The translations under genes and the position numbers were made by a program. Under the pieces are notes generated by a model. The model was not told the DNA's origin. It made no database searches and saw only the letters and a list, made by a program, of their open reading frames with translations. 64,000 bases of DNA from Pseudoxanthomonas sp. CF125. Its GTDB lineage: Bacteria > Pseudomonadota > Gammaproteobacteria > Xanthomonadales > Xanthomonadaceae. The stretch is from positions 1 to 64,000 of the forward strand of contig NZ_FNLD01000004.1 of NCBI RefSeq assembly GCF_900104085.1. Direction: 5' to 3'. This document shows, in pieces, positions 24,683-34,370 of this stretch. Numbering within the stretch: the stretch's first letter is position 1; each line of letters begins with the position of its first letter.

Positions 24683-24775
24683 CACAGGCCCACGGTGGAC
24701 TAAGACCATGGTCGGGCGGCTACGCGCGCTTTGCGGGTCTATGCTCCGCGGGTGAATGCACTCGGGGCCACCGAA

Positions 24776-26677
24776 ATGGGCTACGAAGAGACCTATCGCC
24801 GTTCGATCGAACAACCCGAAACCTTCTGGGCCGAGGAAGCCAAGGCCATCCATTGGCATAAGCCGCCGCAGCGGATACTCGATTACTCCAATCCACCCTT
24901 CCGTCAATGGTTTGTGGGTGGTGAAACCAATCTCTGCTACAACGCAGTCGACCGGCACCTGCCCGAGCGCGCCGACCAGCTGGCCCTGGTCGCCATCTCC
25001 ACCGAAACCAACGTTACCCGCGAGATCACTTATGCCGAGCTGCATCGCGAGGTCAATGCGTTCGCGGCCATCCTGAAGAAACTCGATGTCGGCCGAGGCG
25101 ACCGCGTAGTCGTCTACATGCCCAATATGGCCGAGGCGGTGTTCGCCATGCTGGCCTGCGCGCGCATCGGCGCAGTGCATTCGGTGGTATTCGGCGGGTT
25201 CGCCGCGCACAACCTGGCGCTGCGGCTGGACGATGCGACGCCGAAACTGCTGATCGCCGCCGATGCCGGCATGCGCGGCGGCAAGGTGCTGCCGTACAAG
25301 GCGCTGGTGGACCAGGCTTGCGCGCAGTCGCAATCCCCACCGCCCAAGGTGCTGATCGTCTCGCGCGGACTCGATCCGGCGCTGCCGAAGGTCGAGGGAC
25401 GCGATGTCGACTACGCCACGCTGCGCGCGGAAGTCGGCGATGCGGAAGTGCCGGTGGAATGGCTGGAGTCCAACGAACCCAGCTACTTGCTCTACACCTC
25501 CGGCACGACAGGCAAGCCCAAGGGCGTGCAGCGCGACGTGGGCGGCTATGCGGTGGCATTGGCCTTGTCGATGCGTACCGTGTTCGACGTCGCCCCGGGG
25601 CAGGTGATGTTCTCCACTTCCGACGTGGGCTGGGCGGTGGGCCATTCCTACAACGTGTACGGACCGCTGATCGGCGGGGCCACATCGCTGCTGTACGAAG
25701 GGTTGCCTTTCAGCCCCGACGCCGGCATCTGGTGGTCGCTGTGCGAGAAGTACGGCGTGCGCACCATGTTCTCCTCGCCCACTGCCATCCGCGTGCTCAA
25801 GAAGCACGACGCGTCCTTCATCCGCAACCACGACCTGTCGAAGCTGCAATACCTGTTCCTGGCCGGCGAGCCGCTGGACGAGCCCACCGCGCACTGGATC
25901 CACGACGCGCTGCGCAAGCCGATCATCGACAACTATTGGCAAACCGAAACCGGCTGGCCGGCGATCACCTTGTTGCCGGGCCTGGACATGAAGCCGGTCA
26001 AGTTCGGCTCGCCGGGGTTTCCGAATCTCGGTTACCGGATGAAAGTGATCGACGAAAGCGACGGTGTCGAAGTGGCGGTCAACCGGAAAGGCGTGCTGGT
26101 GATCGAACCGCCGTTGCCGCCCGGGTGCATGACCACGATCTGGAACGACGATGCGCGCTTCGTCAGCAGTTATTTCAGCCACTTCAAGGAACTGCTGTAC
26201 AGCTCGCTGGACTGGGCGATCCGCGACGAGGATGGCTATACCTTCATCCTGGGCCGCACCGACGATGTGATCAACGTGGCTGGCCATAGGCTCGGCACGC
26301 GCGAGATCGAGGAATCGGTTTCCGGTTATGGCGGGGTCGCCGAGGCAGCGGTGATCGGCGTTCACGACGAACTGAAGGGACAAGTGCCGGTGGTGTTCGC
26401 CACTTTGCGGAAAAACACCGAAGAACCGCACGAGCGCGTCGCTGCCGCAGACGGCATGCGTCGCGCGGTGGAGCACAACCTGGGCGCGGTGGCGCGTCCG
26501 GCGCGCGTTTACATCGTCAATGCCTTGCCCAAGACGCGTTCGGGCAAGCTGCTGCGGCGCTCGCTGCAGGCGCTGGCGCAGGGCACCGATCCGGGCGATC
26601 TTTCCACGCTGGATGATCCCAATGCGTTGGAAGAAATAAAAAAAGCGTTGCTGCGGGGGCCGGAGGTGGGGAGTTGA
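24776..26677 (+). CDS. prpE: Propionyl-CoA synthetase PrpE
   Basis: Activates propionate to propionyl-CoA with ATP via an acyl-adenylate. The 633-aa protein starts YEETYRRSIEQPETFWAEEA like E. coli PrpE. It has the adenylation loop LLYTSGTTGKPKGVQRDVGGY, DNYWQTETGWP, LGRTDDVINVAGHRLGTREIEES and the catalytic/acylated lysine region PKTRSGKLLRR. The PrpE-type VQRDVGG and the neighbouring prp genes favour propionate over acetate. ATG 24776 is chosen by homology; GTG 24752 is in frame and the RBS is poor for both. Confidence 0.93.
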   Translation: MGYEETYRRSIEQPETFWAEEAKAIHWHKPPQRILDYSNPPFRQWFVGGETNLCYNAVDRHLPERADQLALVAISTETNVTREITYAELHREVNAFAAILKKLDVGRGDRVVVYMPNMAEAVFAMLACARIGAVHSVVFGGFAAHNLALRLDDATPKLLIAADAGMRGGKVLPYKALVDQACAQSQSPPPKVLIVSRGLDPALPKVEGRDVDYATLRAEVGDAEVPVEWLESNEPSYLLYTSGTTGKPKGVQRDVGGYAVALALSMRTVFDVAPGQVMFSTSDVGWAVGHSYNVYGPLIGGATSLLYEGLPFSPDAGIWWSLCEKYGVRTMFSSPTAIRVLKKHDASFIRNHDLSKLQYLFLAGEPLDEPTAHWIHDALRKPIIDNYWQTETGWPAITLLPGLDMKPVKFGSPGFPNLGYRMKVIDESDGVEVAVNRKGVLVIEPPLPPGCMTTIWNDDARFVSSYFSHFKELLYSSLDWAIRDEDGYTFILGRTDDVINVAGHRLGTREIEESVSGYGGVAEAAVIGVHDELKGQVPVVFATLRKNTEEPHERVAAADGMRRAVEHNLGAVARPARVYIVNALPKTRSGKLLRRSLQALAQGTDPGDLSTLDDPNALEEIKKALLRGPEVGS

Positions 26678-26778: not shown

Positions 26779-26917
26779 GTCATCCCGGCGAATGCCGGGA
26801 TCCATCCGGCCGGTTATGCGCGCTTTCCGGAAAGCCACTTCAATTAAGCGCCGAGTGTTTACTGCTGCGGAATTGTCGTGGCAGCCAAGGATGGATCCCG
26901 GCATTCGCCGGGATGAC
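26779..26917. repeat. REPIN-like inverted doublet
   Basis: Perfect 29-bp arms, 26779-26807 and 26889-26917, each holding the hairpin ATCCCGGCGAATGCCGGGAT and its ATCC tail. They are separated by an 81-bp non-repeated centre. The arrangement of two inverted REP units resembles REPINs mobilised by a RAYT transposase. It lies between the convergent prpE and HTH-citrate synthase genes; nothing else is seen in 26678-26938. Confidence 0.88.
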
Positions 26918-26938
26918 GGTCGATACGGAAAGGACTTG

Positions 26939-28156
26939 TCATTCGTCCAGCGCCGGAGACACTCCGGTGTAGCTTGCGCGTGGACGGATCAGCCTTCCCA
27001 GCGCCTGTTGCTCCAGCGCATGCGCCAGCCAGCCGGCCAGGCGTCCGGCGGCGAACATCACCAGCGCTGGCGTGGCCGGCAATCCGTGGGTCTGGCAGAT
27101 CGAGGCCAGCAGGAAGTCGATATTCGGACGTTGGCCGCTGATTTCCTCGGCGACCGCGATGATTTCCTCCAGGCGCGACATCATCGGTGTGCCCATCTGC
27201 GTTTGGCGGAGACGGGCGAGGATCTCGGCGGCGCGTGGATCGCCGTGCGGGTACAGCGCGTGGCCGAAGCCTGGCAGGTCATCGCCGCGCTGCCAGCGGG
27301 TTTCGATGAACTTGCGTACCGACGGTGCCTCGCCCGCATCGGCGATCAGGGCATGCGTGCGCGCAGTGGCGCCGCCGTGGCGAGGACCCGACAAAGCGGC
27401 CAGTCCGCTGCAGACGGTGGCATGCAGGTGCGCGCCGGTGGAAGCGACCACGCGTGCGGCGAACGCGGAAACGTTGAGTTCGTGATCGGCGCAGACCACC
27501 AGCGCCGCGCGCACGAGTTCGGCGAAATTCTCATCGCCCGGTTTCCAACTGTTGGCCAGCAGGCGATGCACCGGACCCGCGTACGGCGGCTGCGCGACCA
27601 GCAGTGCGGCGTTGTGGCGCAGCAGGGTCGCCGCGATCTCGTGGCGTACGCGCGGCGCGGAGTTGAAGGAATGGCGTACTTCCAGCGCCAACAGAGGAAT
27701 CGCCGACATCGCGCGTTCCAGCGGCGGCAAGCGTGCGTCGTTGGCGATCGCAGCCACGGTCGCGGGCCAGTGCGGGTCGATTTCCAGCGCGAAGGGGTCC
27801 TGCTCGCCGCAATCCCACAGCAGGCGGGCGATGTCTTCCAGGGTGTCGCCCTCGCGCGCGGCGCCGATCGCGGACTTGCCCCGGTAGTAGGGGCCATCGG
27901 GACGGATCAGCGAGATCCGGGTTTCCAGCACCGGCAGGCCTCGGTCCAGGCTCTGTGCCGCGCCTCTGGCCGCGCCGCGTCCGGCCTGCTTGCGTTGCGC
28001 CAGCCGCTCCACATCCTGCCGCGGATACAGGCGGCTGCGGTGGTCCGGGCCGGGGCGCGATTCCAGCAGGCCGCGGCTGACGTAGGCGTACAGCGTGGCC
28101 TGGCTGATGCCGAGCAGGCGGCAGGTGTCGCGGGCGGAGAGCAGGTCGGCGGCCAT
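26939..28156 (-). CDS. Helix-turn-helix/citrate synthase-like fusion protein
   Basis: A 405-aa protein with a MerR-like helix-turn-helix at residues 1-60 ([24 protein letters not shown], then a Tyr/Asp-rich wing [17 protein letters not shown]). A complete citrate synthase fold follows. [21 protein letters not shown] and PNIDFLLAS carry the two catalytic histidines and the aspartate, and RPRASYTG the substrate arginine. It may be active, or it may sense citrate, methylcitrate or acyl-CoA and control transcription. It is divergent from prpBC-acnD-prpF with a TTGATC dyad cluster in between, so I infer it regulates the prp genes. ATG 28156 is chosen because upstream extension is unconserved and crosses the dyad. 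I know of no characterised member. Confidence 0.85.
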
Positions 28157-28165
28157 GGCGATATG

Positions 28166-28193
28166 TTGATCGATTGGATCAAGATTGATCAAT
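28166..28193. promoter_or_regulatory. TTGATC dyad cluster, candidate operator
   Basis: TTGATC (28166-28171), five bases, GATCAA (28177-28182), then the perfect palindrome ATTGATCAAT (28184-28193). Four half-sites fit in 28 bp, 9 bp upstream of the fusion gene and about 110 bp before prpB. The AT-rich block contrasts with its GC-rich surroundings. Confidence 0.6.
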
Positions 28194-28300
28194 GCTCCCG
28201 ATGGTGCCAGATTTGCGGCCCGACGAGGGGCGTACCATTCGCGCACCTCCACCGCCCGGCCTGCCGCGCTGCGGCGGACCATCACCAGGAGTCCTGCCGC

Positions 28301-29203
28301 ATGAGCAACCCGTCCGCTGGCGCCCCCGCTTCACCGGGAATGAAGTTCCGCGCCGCGCTGGCCGCTGAATCGCCCCTGCAGGTGATCGGCGCCATCAACG
28401 CCAACCACGCGCTGCTGGCCAAGCGCGCCGGCTATCGCGCCATTTATCTTTCTGGCGGCGGGGTCGCGGCCGGTTCGCTGGGCCTGCCGGACCTGGGCAT
28501 CAACACCCTGGAGGACGTGCTGGTGGACGTACGCCGGATCACCGACGTGTGCGACCTGCCGTTGCTGGTGGATATCGATACCGGTTTCGGCCCCAGCGCC
28601 TTCAACATCGAACGCACGGTGAAATCGCTGATCAAGGCCGGCGCGGCCGCCTGCCATATCGAAGACCAGGTGGGCGCCAAGCGTTGCGGCCACCGTCCGG
28701 GCAAGGAGATCGTGAGCGCCTCCGAAATGGTGGACCGGGTCAAGGCCGCCGCCGATGCCAAGACCGATCCCGACTTCTTCCTCATTGCACGCACCGATGC
28801 GATCCAGGTCGACGGCGTGGACGCGGCCATCGAACGCGCCATCGCCTGCGTGGAAGCCGGCGCCGACGGCATCTTCGCCGAGGCCGCCTACGACCTGCCC
28901 ACCTACCAGCGTTTCGTCGAAGCGGTGAGGGCGCCGGTGCTGGCAAACATCACCGAGTTCGGCAAGACGCCGCTGTTCACTCGCGAGGAACTGGCTTCGG
29001 TGGGCGTGGCTATCCAGCTTTATCCGCTGTCGGCGTTCCGCGCCATGAACAAGGCCGCTGAAGCCGTGTACACCGCGATACGCCGCGATGGCCACCAGAA
29101 GAATGTGGTGGACATGATGCAGACGCGCGAGGAGCTGTACGAGCGCATCGGCTATCACGAGTTCGAGCAGAAGTTGGATGCGTTGTTCGCTGCTAAGAAA
29201 TAG
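28301..29203 (+). CDS. prpB: 2-Methylisocitrate lyase
   Basis: Cleaves 2-methylisocitrate to pyruvate and succinate, the last step of the methylcitrate cycle. The 300-aa protein has the isocitrate-lyase-family catalytic loop KRCGH at residues 127-131, [18 protein letters not shown] near the N-terminus, and DIDTGFG and IEDQ as metal and substrate contacts. ATG 28301 is chosen with AGGAG at 28287-28291; the reading frame stays open far upstream, but that part is unconserved. First gene of prpB-prpC-acnD-prpF. Confidence 0.95.
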
Positions 29204-29343: not shown

Positions 29344-30492
29344 ATGTCCGAGGCTGCAGTTCCGTTTAAACCCAAGAAGTCCGTCGCCCTGTCCGGCACC
29401 GCCGCGGGCAACACCGCGCTGTGCACGGTCGGCCGCAGCGGCAACGACCTGCATTACCGTGGTTACGACATCCTGGATATCGCGCGCGCTTCGGAGTTCG
29501 AGGAGATCGCCTACCTGCTGGTGCACGGCAAGCTGCCCAATCGCGCCGAGCTGGCCAGCTACAAGGCCAAACTGAAATCGCTGCGCGGCGTGCCGGCCGC
29601 GGTGAAGGCTGCTTTGGAACAACTGCCTGCGTCCGCGCATCCCATGGATGTGATGCGCACCGGCGTATCCGTGCTGGGTTGCGTGTCGCCGGAGAAGGAC
29701 GACCACAACCATCCCGGTGCGCGCGATATCGCTGACAAGCTGATGGCTTCGCTGGGTCCGATGCTGCTGTACTGGTACCACTGGAGCCACAATGGCAAGC
29801 GCATCGACACCGATACCGACGACGACAGCATCGGCGGACACTTCCTGCACCTGCTGCATGGCGAAAAACCGCGCGACTCGTGGGTGCAGGCGATGCACAC
29901 TTCGCTAATCCTGTACGCCGAGCACGAGTTCAACGCCTCCACCTTCGCCTGCCGGGTCATCGCCGGCACCGGCAGCGACATGTACAGCGCCATTGCCGGC
30001 GGCATCGGCGCGCTGCGCGGACCCAAGCATGGCGGTGCAAACGAAGTCGCGTTCGAAGTGCAGAAGCGCTACGAATCGCCCGACGAGGCCGAAGCGGACA
30101 TCAAGGCCCGCGTGGAGCGCAAGGAAGTGGTGATCGGTTTCGGCCACCCGGTCTACACCACCGGCGATCCGCGCAACCAGGTGATCAAGGACGTGGCCCG
30201 CGAACTGTCGGATGAGCAGGGCAGCCGCAAGATGTACGACATCGCCGAGCGTCTGGAAACGGTGATGTGGGACATCAAGAAGATGTTCCCCAACCTGGAC
30301 TGGTTCAGCGCGGTCAGCTACCACATGATGGGCGTGCCCACCGCCATGTTCACTCCTCTGTTCGTGATCGCCCGCACCAGCGGCTGGAGCGCGCACGTGA
30401 TCGAACAGCGCATCGACGGCAAGATCATCCGCCCCAGCGCCAATTACACCGGCCCGGAAGACCTCGCCTTCGTACCGCTCGACAAGCGCTGA
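29344..30492 (+). CDS. prpC: 2-Methylcitrate synthase
   Basis: Condenses propionyl-CoA with oxaloacetate to 2-methylcitrate. At 382 aa it is the short citrate synthase type typical of Prp[16 protein letters not shown] and [13 protein letters not shown] hold the catalytic histidines, [16 protein letters not shown] the aspartate, and [10 protein letters not shown] the conserved arginine. ATG 29344 gives the [18 protein letters not shown] start; longer reading translates the palindromic repeat and is rejected. Confidence 0.95.
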
Positions 30493-30568: not shown

Positions 30569-33163
30569 ATGAACACCCAGTACCGCAAACCCTTGCCCGG
30601 CACTTCGCTGGAATACTTCGACGCGCGCGCCGCAGTGGAAGCGATACGGCCCGGCGCTTACGCCACGTTGCCTTATACCTCGCGCGTGCTGGCCGAGAAT
30701 CTGGTGCGCCGCTGCGATCCGGACACGCTCACCGATTCGCTGAAGCAGTTGATCGAACGCAAACGCGATCTGGATTTTCCGTGGTTTCCGGCGCGCGTGG
30801 TCTGCCACGACATCCTGGGTCAGACCGCGCTGGTGGATCTGGCCGGTTTGCGCGACGCCATCGCCGAGCAGGGCGGCGATCCTGCGCAGGTCAATCCGGT
30901 GGTGCCGGTGCAGTTGATCGTCGACCATTCGCTGGCGGTGGAATGCGGCGGCTTCGATCCCGACGCCTTCGCCAAGAACCGCGCCATCGAGGACCGCCGC
31001 AACGAAGACCGTTTCCATTTCATCGAATGGACGCGCCAGGCCTTCAAGAACATGGAAGTGATTCCGCCGGGCAACGGGATCATGCACCAGATCAACCTGG
31101 AGAAGATGTCGCCGGTGGTGCAGGTGCGCGACGGCGTGGCTTTTCCGGACACCTGCGTGGGCACCGACAGCCACACGCCGCACGTGGACGCGCTGGGCGT
31201 GATCGCGATAGGCGTCGGCGGATTGGAAGCGGAGAACGTGATGCTGGGCCGCGCCTCGTGGATGCGCCTGCCGGAAATCGTCGGCGTGCAGCTGACGGGC
31301 AGGCCGCAGCCCGGCATCACCGCCACCGACGTGGTGCTGGCGCTGACCGAATTCCTGCGCAAGTCGAAAGTAGTCGGCGCCTGGTTGGAATTCCACGGTC
31401 AAGGCGCTGCGGCGCTAACCCTGGGCGACCGGGCGACCATTTCCAACATGGCGCCGGAATACGGCGCGACCGCGGCGATGTTCTCCATCGATTCCCAGAC
31501 CATCGATTACCTGCGCCTGACCGGCCGCGAGGAACAACAGGTGAAGTTGGTGGAGCTGTACGCGCGCCACACCGGCTTGTGGTCCGACAGCCTGGAGCAG
31601 GCACAATACGAGCGCACGCTGCAGTTCGACCTGTCCAGCGTGGTGCGCAACATGGCCGGTCCGTCGAATCCGCACGCGCGTGTGGCCACCAGCGATCTTG
31701 CCGCCAAGGGCATCGCCGGCGCATGGGAAGAAACGCCAGGACTGATGCCCGACGGCGCGGTGATCATCGCCGCCATCACCAGCTGCACCAATACCAGCAA
31801 TCCGCGCAACGTGATTGCCGCCGCATTGCTGGCGCGCAACGCAAATCGCCTGGGACTGGCGCGCAAGCCGTGGGTTAAGACCTCGCTCGCACCTGGTTCC
31901 AAAGCCGTGAAGCTGTACCTGGACGAAAGCGGCCTGATGACGGAACTGGAGGCGCTGGGCTTCGGCGTGGTCGGTTTCGCCTGCACCACCTGCAACGGCA
32001 TGTCCGGCGCGCTGGACCCTGTTATCCAGCAGGAAATCATCGACCGCGATCTGTATGCGACCGCCGTGCTGTCGGGCAACCGCAACTTCGATGGCCGTAT
32101 CCATCCGTATGCGAAGCAGGCTTTCCTCGCATCGCCCGCGCTGGTGGTGGCCTATGCCATCGCCGGCACCATCCGTTTCGACATCGAGAAGGACGTGCTG
32201 GGCGTGGTCGATGGCAAAGAGATCCGGCTGAAGGACCTCTGGCCCAGCGACGAGGAGATCGATGCGGTAGTGAAGGCGTCGGTGAAGCCGGAGCAGTTCC
32301 GCAGCGTGTACGCGCCGATGTTCAACGTACGCGTCGAACACGGTCCCAAGGTCGAACCGCTGTACGACTGGCGCGGCATGAGCACCTACATCCGCCGCCC
32401 GCCGTACTGGGAAGGCGCGCTGGCGGGCGAACGCACCTTGCGCGGCATGCGGCCGCTGGCGGTGCTGCCGGACAACATCACCACCGACCATCTGTCGCCC
32501 TCCAACGCGATCATGCTCGACAGCGCCGCCGGCGAGTACCTGGCGAAGATGGGCGTGCCCGAAGAAGACTTCAATTCCTACGCCACCCATCGCGGCGATC
32601 ATCTGACCGCCCAGCGCGCAACCTTCGCCAATCCCAAACTGTTCAACGAAATGGTGCGCAATGCCGATGGCGGCGTAAAGCAGGGTTCGCTGGCGCGCGT
32701 CGAACCGGAAGGCAGGGTGATGCGTATGTGGGAAGCGATAGAAACCTACATGGAGCGCAGGCAGCCATTGATCATCATCGCCGGCGCCGACTACGGCCAG
32801 GGATCCTCGCGCGACTGGGCCGCCAAGGGCGTGCGCCTGGCCGGCGTAGAAGCGATCGCCGCCGAAGGTTTCGAACGCATCCACCGCACCAACCTGATCG
32901 GCATGGGCGTGCTGCCGCTGGAGTTTAAACCCGGCACCGACCGCAACACGCTGGGCATCGACGGTACCGAGACTTTCGATGTGATCGGCGAACCCGCTCC
33001 GCGCGCCGAATTGACTCTGGTGATCCATCGCCGCAACGGCGAGCGCGTGGAAGTTCCCGTCATCTGTCGCCTGGACAGCGACGAAGAGGTATCGATCTAC
33101 GAAGCCGGCGGTGTGCTGCAGCGCTTCGCGCAGGATTTTCTTGAATCGTCCAAGGCCGCCTGA
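30569..33163 (+). CDS. acnD: Fe/S-dependent 2-methylcitrate dehydratase AcnD
   Basis: An aconitase-family dehydratase (864 aa) that converts 2-methylcitrate to 2-methyl-trans-aconitate in the PrpF-dependent route. The [4Fe-4S] cysteines are seen in ITSCTNTSNPRNV and FACTTCNGMSG. GTDSHTPHVDALGVIAIGVGG and the C-terminal swivel domain with GADYGQGSSRDWAAKG are family blocks. Its position directly before prpF identifies AcnD rather than AcnA. ATG 30569 has no strong RBS. Confidence 0.93.
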   Translation: MNTQYRKPLPGTSLEYFDARAAVEAIRPGAYATLPYTSRVLAENLVRRCDPDTLTDSLKQLIERKRDLDFPWFPARVVCHDILGQTALVDLAGLRDAIAEQGGDPAQVNPVVPVQLIVDHSLAVECGGFDPDAFAKNRAIEDRRNEDRFHFIEWTRQAFKNMEVIPPGNGIMHQINLEKMSPVVQVRDGVAFPDTCVGTDSHTPHVDALGVIAIGVGGLEAENVMLGRASWMRLPEIVGVQLTGRPQPGITATDVVLALTEFLRKSKVVGAWLEFHGQGAAALTLGDRATISNMAPEYGATAAMFSIDSQTIDYLRLTGREEQQVKLVELYARHTGLWSDSLEQAQYERTLQFDLSSVVRNMAGPSNPHARVATSDLAAKGIAGAWEETPGLMPDGAVIIAAITSCTNTSNPRNVIAAALLARNANRLGLARKPWVKTSLAPGSKAVKLYLDESGLMTELEALGFGVVGFACTTCNGMSGALDPVIQQEIIDRDLYATAVLSGNRNFDGRIHPYAKQAFLASPALVVAYAIAGTIRFDIEKDVLGVVDGKEIRLKDLWPSDEEIDAVVKASVKPEQFRSVYAPMFNVRVEHGPKVEPLYDWRGMSTYIRRPPYWEGALAGERTLRGMRPLAVLPDNITTDHLSPSNAIMLDSAAGEYLAKMGVPEEDFNSYATHRGDHLTAQRATFANPKLFNEMVRNADGGVKQGSLARVEPEGRVMRMWEAIETYMERRQPLIIIAGADYGQGSSRDWAAKGVRLAGVEAIAAEGFERIHRTNLIGMGVLPLEFKPGTDRNTLGIDGTETFDVIGEPAPRAELTLVIHRRNGERVEVPVICRLDSDEEVSIYEAGGVLQRFAQDFLESSKAA

Positions 33164-33176
33164 CCGGAGAGCCGCA

Positions 33177-34370
33177 ATGCCGCACGTCCCGCAAATCAGC
33201 ATTCCCGCCACCTACATGCGCGGCGGCACCAGCAAGGGCGTGTTCTTCCGCCTGCAGGACCTGCCCACGGCGGCGCAGGTTCCGGGCAAGGCGCGCGATG
33301 CATTGCTGTTGCGGGTGATCGGCTCGCCCGATCCCTACGGCAAGCACACCGATGGCATGGGCGGCGCCACGTCCAGCACCAGCAAGGTGGTGATCATCGC
33401 GCCGGCTTCGCAGCCCGGCCATGACGTCGACTATCTGTACGGGCAGGTTCCGCTCAACGAAAGCTTCATCGACTGGAGCGGCAACTGCGGCAACCTGTCT
33501 TCGGCGGTCGGTCCGTTCGCCATTTCCAATGGCTTTATCGATCCGGCGCGCGTTCCGCGCGACGGGATCTGCACGGTGCGCATCTGGCAGGCGAACATCG
33601 GCAAGACCATCATTGCGCATGTGCCGGTCATCGATGGCCGGGTGCAGGAGACCGGGGACTTCGAACTGGACGGCGTGACTTTTCCGGCCGCCGAAATCCA
33701 GCTGGAGTTCCTCGACCCCGCCGATGAAGGCGATGGCGAAGGCGGCGGCGCCATGTTCCCCACCGGCAATCTTGTCGATGAACTCCAGATACCGGGTGTG
33801 GGTACGTTCAAGGCCACCATGATCAATGCCGGTGTACCCACGATCTTCGTCGATGCCGCCGCATTGGGTTACGACGGCACCGAATTGCAGGGTGCGATCA
33901 ACGAAGACAAGGCGGCACTGGCCAAGCTGGAAGCCATTCGCGCGCACGGCGCCGTGCGCATGGGCCTGATCGGCGATGCCGCCCAGGCTGCGGCACGCCC
34001 GCTGACGCCGAAGATCGCCTTTGTCGCGCCACCGAAGGACTATGTTTCCTCCAGCGGCAAGCCGGTGCGCGCGGCCGACATCGATCTGCTGGCCCGCGCC
34101 ATCTCCATGGGCAAACTGCACCACGCGATGATGGGCACCGCTTCGGTGGCCATCGCTTCGGCCGCGGCGGTGCCGGGCACGCTGGTCAACGCAGCCGCGG
34201 GTGGCGGCACCCGCGAAGCCATCGTCTTCGGACATCCCTCCGGCACTCTGCGCGTGGGCGCCGAGGCGAAACAGGCCGAGGGTCAATGGACGGTGGCCAA
34301 GGCCATCATGAGCCGCAGTGCACGGGTGCTGATGGAAGGCGCGGTGCGGGTGCCCGGCGAGGTCCTGTAG
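33177..34370 (+). CDS. prpF: 2-Methylaconitate cis-trans isomerase PrpF
   Basis: Isomerises 2-methyl-trans-aconitate, the AcnD product, to the cis form. The 397-aa protein has the diagnostic PATYMRGGTSKGVFF N-terminus, DGMGGATSSTSKV, and DWSGNCGNLSSAVGPFA with the conserved cysteine. Two repeated halves, as in diaminopimelate epimerase-like folds, are expected. GGAG precedes ATG 33177, and only 13 bp separate it from acnD. The stop TAG is part of a short palindrome. Confidence 0.95.
   Translation: MPHVPQISIPATYMRGGTSKGVFFRLQDLPTAAQVPGKARDALLLRVIGSPDPYGKHTDGMGGATSSTSKVVIIAPASQPGHDVDYLYGQVPLNESFIDWSGNCGNLSSAVGPFAISNGFIDPARVPRDGICTVRIWQANIGKTIIAHVPVIDGRVQETGDFELDGVTFPAAEIQLEFLDPADEGDGEGGGAMFPTGNLVDELQIPGVGTFKATMINAGVPTIFVDAAALGYDGTELQGAINEDKAALAKLEAIRAHGAVRMGLIGDAAQAAARPLTPKIAFVAPPKDYVSSSGKPVRAADIDLLARAISMGKLHHAMMGTASVAIASAAAVPGTLVNAAAGGGTREAIVFGHPSGTLRVGAEAKQAEGQWTVAKAIMSRSARVLMEGAVRVPGEVL

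Follow-up and report, generated by a model that had tools for sequence, protein, structure and literature searches.

A predicted regulator built on a citrate synthase fold beside the propionate genes of Pseudoxanthomonas sp. CF125

Introduction

The closest described counterparts of the gene reported here are the regulators of propionate metabolism named PrpR. According to the introduction of PMC9765439, which cites Suvorova 2012, propionate metabolism is run by a Fis-type PrpR in all analysed Xanthomonadales. For X. citri, PMC12153269 reports that PrpR represses the prp genes through the site GTTGCAA-N2-TTGCAAC and that propionate induction persists in the PrpR mutant, and in P. aeruginosa the GntR-type PrpR is described as a repressor (PMC9765439).

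In this study, we analysed a stretch of 64,000 nucleotides from Pseudoxanthomonas sp. CF125 (contig NZ_FNLD01000004.1, positions 1 to 64,000), hereafter called the window. It carries a gene of a kind that databases file as citrate synthase and that is most likely, judging from comparative sequence analysis, a DNA-binding switch built from the citrate synthase (CS) fold. A first-pass annotation of the window had known of no characterised member of this kind, and our search of the open-access literature, made through ranked listings, agrees. No description of a CS fold serving as the sensor of a transcription factor was found in the open-access literature searched.

Results

The fusion gene and its predicted structure

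The gene and the parts of its product, P0001, are as follows.

26939-28156, minus strand: HTH-citrate synthase fusion gene (P0001), ATG start, 405 aa
27989-28144, minus strand: helix-turn-helix (HTH) domain, residues 5-56 (Pfam HTH_17 / MerR_1, alignment A1)
27932-27979, minus strand: flexible linker, residues 60-75 (pLDDT <50 in the AlphaFold2 model)
26978-27943, minus strand: CS domain, residues 72-393 (Pfam PF00285)

The initial reading of an HTH joined to a full CS fold within 405 aa was confirmed for both domains by the Pfam search. HTH_17 gave the top HTH score (residues 5-56, 35.9 bits, cut-off 27), MerR_1 was also above its cut-off (residues 9-54, 24.2 bits, cut-off 21.6) and Citrate_synt (PF00285) matched residues 72-393 with 212.5 bits (cut-off 27). 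PF00376 stayed below its cut-off (19.1 against 28.2 bits), and neither PrpR_N (PF06506) nor AAA+ or sigma-54 interaction domains matched P0001 in Pfam; a profile search for PF06506 in genome G000 gave no match either. The AlphaFold2 model of the monomer, computed from the 22-member alignment A1, reached a pLDDT of 86.4 and a pTM of 0.78, with a low-confidence linker at residues 60-75. The first-pass description of the HTH as MerR-like is limited to the predicted winged helix, because the model is without the MerR coiled coil; in its favour MerR_1 is above cut-off, and against it HTH_17 is the best match. In a Foldseek search with the model, the best 50 PDB rows were all methylcitrate or citrate synthases (TM by query 0.62-0.69), at an rmsd of 5.7-12 A, so that the domain arrangement is not matched exactly.

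The motif TLYAYVSRG, at residues 21-29 of the HTH, was identical in 22/22 members of A1, where it forms the longest unbroken invariant run, and was kept in 54 of the 61 rows of a wider fusion set, varying in the other seven. Three genes of the genome itself matched P0001, namely the fusion gene, prpC and a third that is presumably gltA. The nearest named relative among the loci found was in Pseudoxanthomonas sacheonensis (L004, 96%), and a chance fusion was ruled out by the presence of full-length two-domain relatives in 33/37 genomes of the same genus, its own included.

The active site

The motifs GPRHGGA, GFGHALY, PNIDF and RPRASYTG, listed by the first-pass annotation as kept, are all present in P0001. 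So are all seven active-site residues, H225, H260, H299, R308, D347, R372 and R391, which we take as the counterparts of pig H238, H274, H320, R329, D375, R401 and R421, and they are invariant in the 22 members of A1, the family of the window protein among them. The wider survey covered 61 fusion rows, with one gene entered twice. R308, R391 and R393 were kept in 61/61, R372 in 60, H225 in 58, H260 and D347 in 55 each and H299 in 54. Six far relatives (L160-L165) have lost H260 and D347, and five of them also have H299 changed or gapped; single-residue changes were seen at H299 in L118 and L170 and at R372 in L172. The conservation expected of homologues thus held throughout A1 and failed for the catalytic His and Asp in 6/61 rows, all divergent. 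This loss, with the arginines kept in 61/61, fits the role of a sensor domain, and it appears that in some lineages the CS fold functions without catalysis.

It must be noted that D347 is kept in A1 although oxaloacetate binding alone should not require it, and catalysis is therefore possible. In this regard, P0001 could be a bifunctional enzyme-regulator that retains the synthesis of methylcitrate or citrate and alters its DNA binding during turnover. The seven invariant residues of A1, catalytic Asp included, and the PGFGH and PNID motifs of the window protein are what such an enzyme would show. However, no NCBIfam enzyme model reaches its cut-off in P0001: the best, the PRK12350 citrate synthase, scores 158 against 332 bits, and the 2-methylcitrate synthase equivalogs NF009006 and TIGR01800 score 124.9 against 550 and 146.6 against 421.3. 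The catalytic losses in 6/61 rows also speak against it, and the neighbouring genes include a dedicated PrpC, which leaves no obvious need for another such enzyme. We consider a bifunctional protein unlikely.

The prp neighbourhood and the putative operator

The fusion gene is flanked by the following features.

24731-26677, plus strand: prpE, propionate-CoA ligase, convergent with the fusion gene (TIGR02316, 1123 bits, cut-off 827)
28166-28192, strand not assigned: putative operator TTGATCAATCTTGAT-N7-ATCAA as read on the minus strand, core match 28166-28189 (upstream-DNA comparison)
28185-28213, plus strand: predicted prpB promoter, -35 TTGATC (28185-28190), TG (28205-28206), -10 CAGATT (28208-28213)
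28301-29203, plus strand: prpB, methylisocitrate lyase, presumed target (NF008455, 528 bits, cut-off 353)
29344-30492, plus strand: prpC, 2-methylcitrate synthase, presumed target (NF009006, 722 bits, cut-off 550)
30572-33163, plus strand: acnD, 2-methylisocitrate dehydratase, presumed target (TIGR02333, 1810 bits, cut-off 1420)
33180-34370, plus strand: prpF, 2-methylaconitate isomerase, presumed target (TIGR02334, 724 bits, cut-off 441)

That the fusion faces prpBC-acnD-prpF and converges on prpE, as first read, stood up, with all five genes above their NCBIfam equivalog cut-offs. In the stretch that separates the fusion gene from the convergent prpE, at 26783-26925, inspection by eye showed two inverted ATGGATCCCGGCATTCGCCGGGATGACG-like copies, which may be a dispersed repeat or a two-way terminator.

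The upstream DNA of 21 of 23 loci was compared with that of the window, two loci with a missing gene start being left out. In the window, the putative operator ATCAATCTTGAT-N7-ATCAA, of 24 bp, lies 9 bp ahead of the fusion start codon and overlaps the -35 box of the weak prpB promoter that we predict. In Lysobacteraceae loci the start codon is immediately preceded by the form TTGATCAATCTTGAT-N7-ATCAA, with one change in L020. Loci of Rhizobium, Sphingomonadales and Phenylobacterium, whose neighbours differ, have TCAATCTTGAT-N7-ATCAA in that place, and the Poribacteria locus (L023) shows no more than a poor form of the block. Wherever an operator was scored (20 loci), a start codon follows within 1-12 bp, and therefore the promoter of the fusion gene itself must overlap the block.

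In the genome itself, the operator pattern matched exactly at one place, with two mismatches at one and with three mismatches at nine, compared with no match for a control pattern, and as the exact site is single, prpE has no exact operator of its own. Each of these sites, and the exact one is no exception, falls within an open frame of at least 100 codons, which settles nothing because the DNA is GC-rich. Several of the ten sites with two or three mismatches (L053-L062) have the form ATCCATCTTGATCTTG.

Linkage of operator and fusion

We searched 297 genomes of the family for the operator (at most one mismatch, with the reversed pattern as control) and for the full-length fusion (E <= 1e-60). 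The operator was found in 88/297 genomes (90 sites, no reversed-control matches) and the fusion in 88/297, and the two sets of genomes were identical; this and the phylum sample below contain related genomes, so that counts are not independent trials. In 87 of the 90 cases the operator lay 9-41 bp upstream of the fusion protein match; in G161 operator and fusion, a contig-end gene, were on different contigs. G145 (L094) has a second operator 231 bp upstream, adjoining prpB, giving one operator per divergent gene, the two being 218 bp apart. In G031 (L093) a second operator, with the same promoter block, stands ahead of acnD on another contig among other neighbours. Such a relocated acnD operator and the one-per-gene arrangement argue for control of the target genes and not of the regulator alone. 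Stop codons inside the match were present in three of the 88 fusion genes (G267, G289, G337), and contig ends truncate two others (G161, G278).

A wider sample comprised 398 genomes of the phylum (fusion at E <= 1e-50, exact operator). The fusion was present in 52/398 genomes (53 genes) and the exact operator in 40/398, that is, in 36/52 genomes with the fusion compared with 4/346 without it (Fisher p 4e-34, the genomes not being independent), and all 36 operators of fusion genomes were directly upstream of the fusion on the same strand. Of the 16 fusion genomes without an exact operator, 15 were viewed by eye (G627 was left out): eight had a variant (L106, L108, L109, L112, L121, L168, L169 and L170), and in seven, namely L118 and the six degenerate L160-L165, none was visible. 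The four genomes with an exact operator and no fusion match at E <= 1e-50 (G376, G505, G619, G645) may hold chance or orphan sites.

It could be argued that the operator belongs to a different, unlinked regulator and that the fusion is a hitch-hiker, given that operator binding by the fusion is deduced by comparing sequences. However, the operator tracks the fusion across bacteria whose neighbouring genes differ (CS, CoA-transferase, prp), and it is missing together with the fusion in members of g1, g26, g47, g48 and g64, genera that otherwise have both. We regard a hitch-hiking fusion as the remotest of the explanations considered here.

Neighbours across the phylum

In the best 30 of the 53 phylum loci, the divergent neighbour was a citrate synthase in 20, prpB in five, acnD in one and none of these in four. 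The 20 citrate synthases are related to the partner of L021/L022, and those of L021, L022 and L023 are above the PRK12350 cut-off. All 24 neighbour citrate synthases viewed (L021-L023, L025 and 20 of L106-L129) have Glu where the catalytic Asp is expected, and two aligned M. tuberculosis CitA chains also read NVEF there. In three of these last four, L107, L108 and L111 (=L174), and also in L167, the fusion is divergent from a family-III CoA-transferase gene, with the operator in L107, L174 and L167 and a variant in L108. Genes for 2-hydroxyacid dehydrogenases are found near L169 and near the plasmid copies of Ewingella and Caballeronia. Neighbours of these two kinds suggest another hydroxyacid or acyl-CoA pathway. 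L118, in which no operator was visible, has a different neighbour. The degenerate L160 and L161 adjoin MipA and a CitMHS citrate transporter (by Pfam for L160, by eye for L161), and upstream of them stands a different inverted repeat, TTTACA-N4-TGTAAA.

Matches to the fusion were also present on 35 plasmids. They include Agrobacterium fabrum C58, where the neighbour is a citrate synthase, and Ewingella, where it is a CoA transferase, as well as Deinococcus and Caballeronia. Nine matches had no annotated feature; the 26 that were annotated were all named citrate synthase of some kind.

PrpR and the fusion in the family

PrpR_N (PF06506) was found in 36/297 family genomes, none of them among the 88 with the fusion (hypergeometric probability 1.2e-6 if genomes were independent, which they are not). 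In 10/10 PrpR loci examined (of 36), PrpR is divergent from prpBC, which is the place of the fusion. Genus g48 has the fusion in four genomes and PrpR in twelve, and g1, g26, g47 and g64 include members that lack both. A further 173/297 genomes lack both, and prpB was present in 80/80 of those searched; a genome can therefore have the pathway without the fusion. The PrpB of these 80 was of the window's kind in 24 (85-92% identity) and of a 61-66% kind in 56, and in G025 prpB follows prpE with no regulator in between. It looks as if the fusion and PrpR were alternatives to each other, with many relatives managing prpB in the absence of both. The first-pass proposal that the fusion regulates the prp genes in place of PrpR is very probable, in view of 0/297 genomes with both and the same divergent place in 10/10 PrpR loci examined.

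These results also bear on the view that P0001 is a plain enzyme, namely a third citrate synthase whose HTH is vestigial and whose place beside the prp genes is incidental. The active site is intact and the 26/26 plasmid annotations read citrate synthase, as this view would have it; nevertheless, the longest invariant run of A1 lies in the HTH, the operator occurs in 88/88 family fusion genomes and no genome has both the fusion and PrpR. We hold a plain enzyme to be very improbable, and reject it on the operator linkage and on the lack of PrpR in genomes with the fusion.

The predicted prpB promoter

The predicted prpB promoter has a 17 bp spacer, its -35 TTGATC inside the operator and a TG ahead of CAGATT, and looks like a weak extended -10 type. 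Among 62 distinct sites the block GGTGCCAGATT was conserved outside the searched pattern; conservation inside that pattern proves nothing, because the search fixed those positions. CAGATT occurred as the -10 at that spacing in 43/57 distinct prpB upstream regions of the fusion type. The regulator-less comparison set consisted of 29 regions, from 30 loci out of the 80 genomes without PrpR or fusion, and had TAAAAT in 15/29 and not in the other 14. TA[ATC]AAT, with a shuffled rate of 1-1.5%, was found in 0/57 fusion-type, 0/10 PrpR-type and 15/29 regulator-less regions. None of the 29 regulator-less regions (L193-L222) has the operator-type spacing, and no regulator gene was evident near regulator-less prpB where viewed, as if expression were constitutive.

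Origin of the fusion

In a tree of 72 rows, with few outgroups and a program warning of long branches, the fusions formed one clade (100/100) and the neighbour citrate synthases another (92/82), and the two grouped together (98/88) as against PrpC and one presumed GltA. A recent PrpC duplication as origin was ruled out, the fusion clade (100/100) being apart from PrpC. It is a fair guess that the adjoining citrate synthase was duplicated and that the copy became its regulator.

Discussion

P0001 is, in our judgement, highly likely to be a one-component regulator that seats its HTH on the operator, uses its CS pocket as a ligand sensor, represses its own gene and probably activates prpBC. The N-terminal winged HTH would bind the putative operator between the fusion gene and prpB. 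The CS fold would act as sensor, its retained active site binding 2-methylcitrate, or oxaloacetate with propionyl-CoA. Citrate synthases close their domains on substrate binding. Such closure would be a natural means of shifting the HTHs here, and closure of the CS domain on its ligand may alter how the protein sits on DNA. Because the operator spans the stretch in which the promoter of the fusion gene has to lie, the protein should repress itself. Ligand-bound protein would most likely activate prpBC-acnD-prpF, given that the operator overlaps the -35 box of the weak predicted prpB promoter and the sequence upstream of it. The predicted operator renders the regulator idea directly testable.

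The sign of control deserves attention. P0001 might instead block RNA polymerase at the prpB -35 and be released by methylcitrate or propionyl-CoA. The putative operator overlaps the predicted -35 hexamer, and repressors are described both for P. aeruginosa (the GntR-type PrpR; PMC9765439) and for X. citri (PrpR, upstream of prpB; PMC12153269), the latter making repression by the fusion quite possible. However, one would expect a promoter under repression to be strong by itself, and TA[ATC]AAT is absent from 57 fusion-type regions, compared with TAAAAT in 15/29 regulator-less ones. The fusion-type promoter reads as needing help, which argues for activation. On these promoter sequences we lean somewhat towards the fusion as an activator of prpBC-acnD-prpF, and release from repression is a possible but less favoured account.

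Beyond the regulator proposed here, a more far-reaching account may be outlined, which we hold to be improbable: P0001 would be an active (methyl)citrate synthase that signals the flux through its own reaction by DNA binding, and the founding type of a widespread regulator family, born by duplication beside citrate synthase genes and moved to the prp operons of Xanthomonadaceae, where it displaced PrpR, to CoA-transferase genes of other bacteria and, catalytically dead, to a citrate-transporter locus.

The fusion is common (52/398 phylum genomes) yet filed as an enzyme, and therefore annotations of central carbon metabolism may carry false citrate synthases. Many relatives have it in the usual position of PrpR, beside a conserved DNA site, and the 88/297 family genomes with the fusion and without PrpR contrast with the statement in PMC9765439 on PrpR in all analysed Xanthomonadales.

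Comparison with known systems

MerR-activated promoters have spacers of 19-20 bp. The fusion resembles the MerR family in an HTH above the MerR_1 cut-off. It differs in that its model is without the long antiparallel coiled-coil helix of that family, a linker (residues 60-75) leading to the CS domain. The prpB promoter, as predicted, would have a 17 bp spacer, shorter than those of MerR, with the operator overlapping and preceding the -35. On the lack of a coiled coil in the model and the predicted 17 bp spacer, P0001 was not placed in the MerR family.

The Fis-type PrpR (PF06506; Salmonella), with which PMC12153269 compares the X. citri protein, has the same target genes and the same divergent place beside prpBC (10/10 loci examined, of 36). 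However, its PrpR_N and AAA+ domains are not matched in P0001, the two never co-occur in the 297 family genomes, and the X. citri site GTTGCAA-N2-TTGCAAC (PMC12153269) differs from the fusion operator. The GntR-type PrpR of Pseudomonas aeruginosa (PA0797) also regulates a prp operon, with a GntR/FCD architecture unrelated to the fusion (PMC9765439). With PrpC, M. tuberculosis CitA and PRK12350 the fusion has the fold and the active-site residues in common, whereas it adds an HTH and a linker, is below all NCBIfam enzyme cut-offs and forms a separate clade (100/100).

In working principle, the likeness is to MocR/GabR, described as a winged HTH with a whole metabolic enzyme fold as sensor, as is likewise proposed for the fusion. 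MocR/GabR has an aminotransferase fold, and enzyme fold, HTH type and ligand chemistry all differ from those of the fusion; the likeness is drawn at the level of that principle. Enzyme folds as sensors of transcription factors are thus already known, as in MocR/GabR, and the CS fold would, by the open-access literature searched, be a new one.
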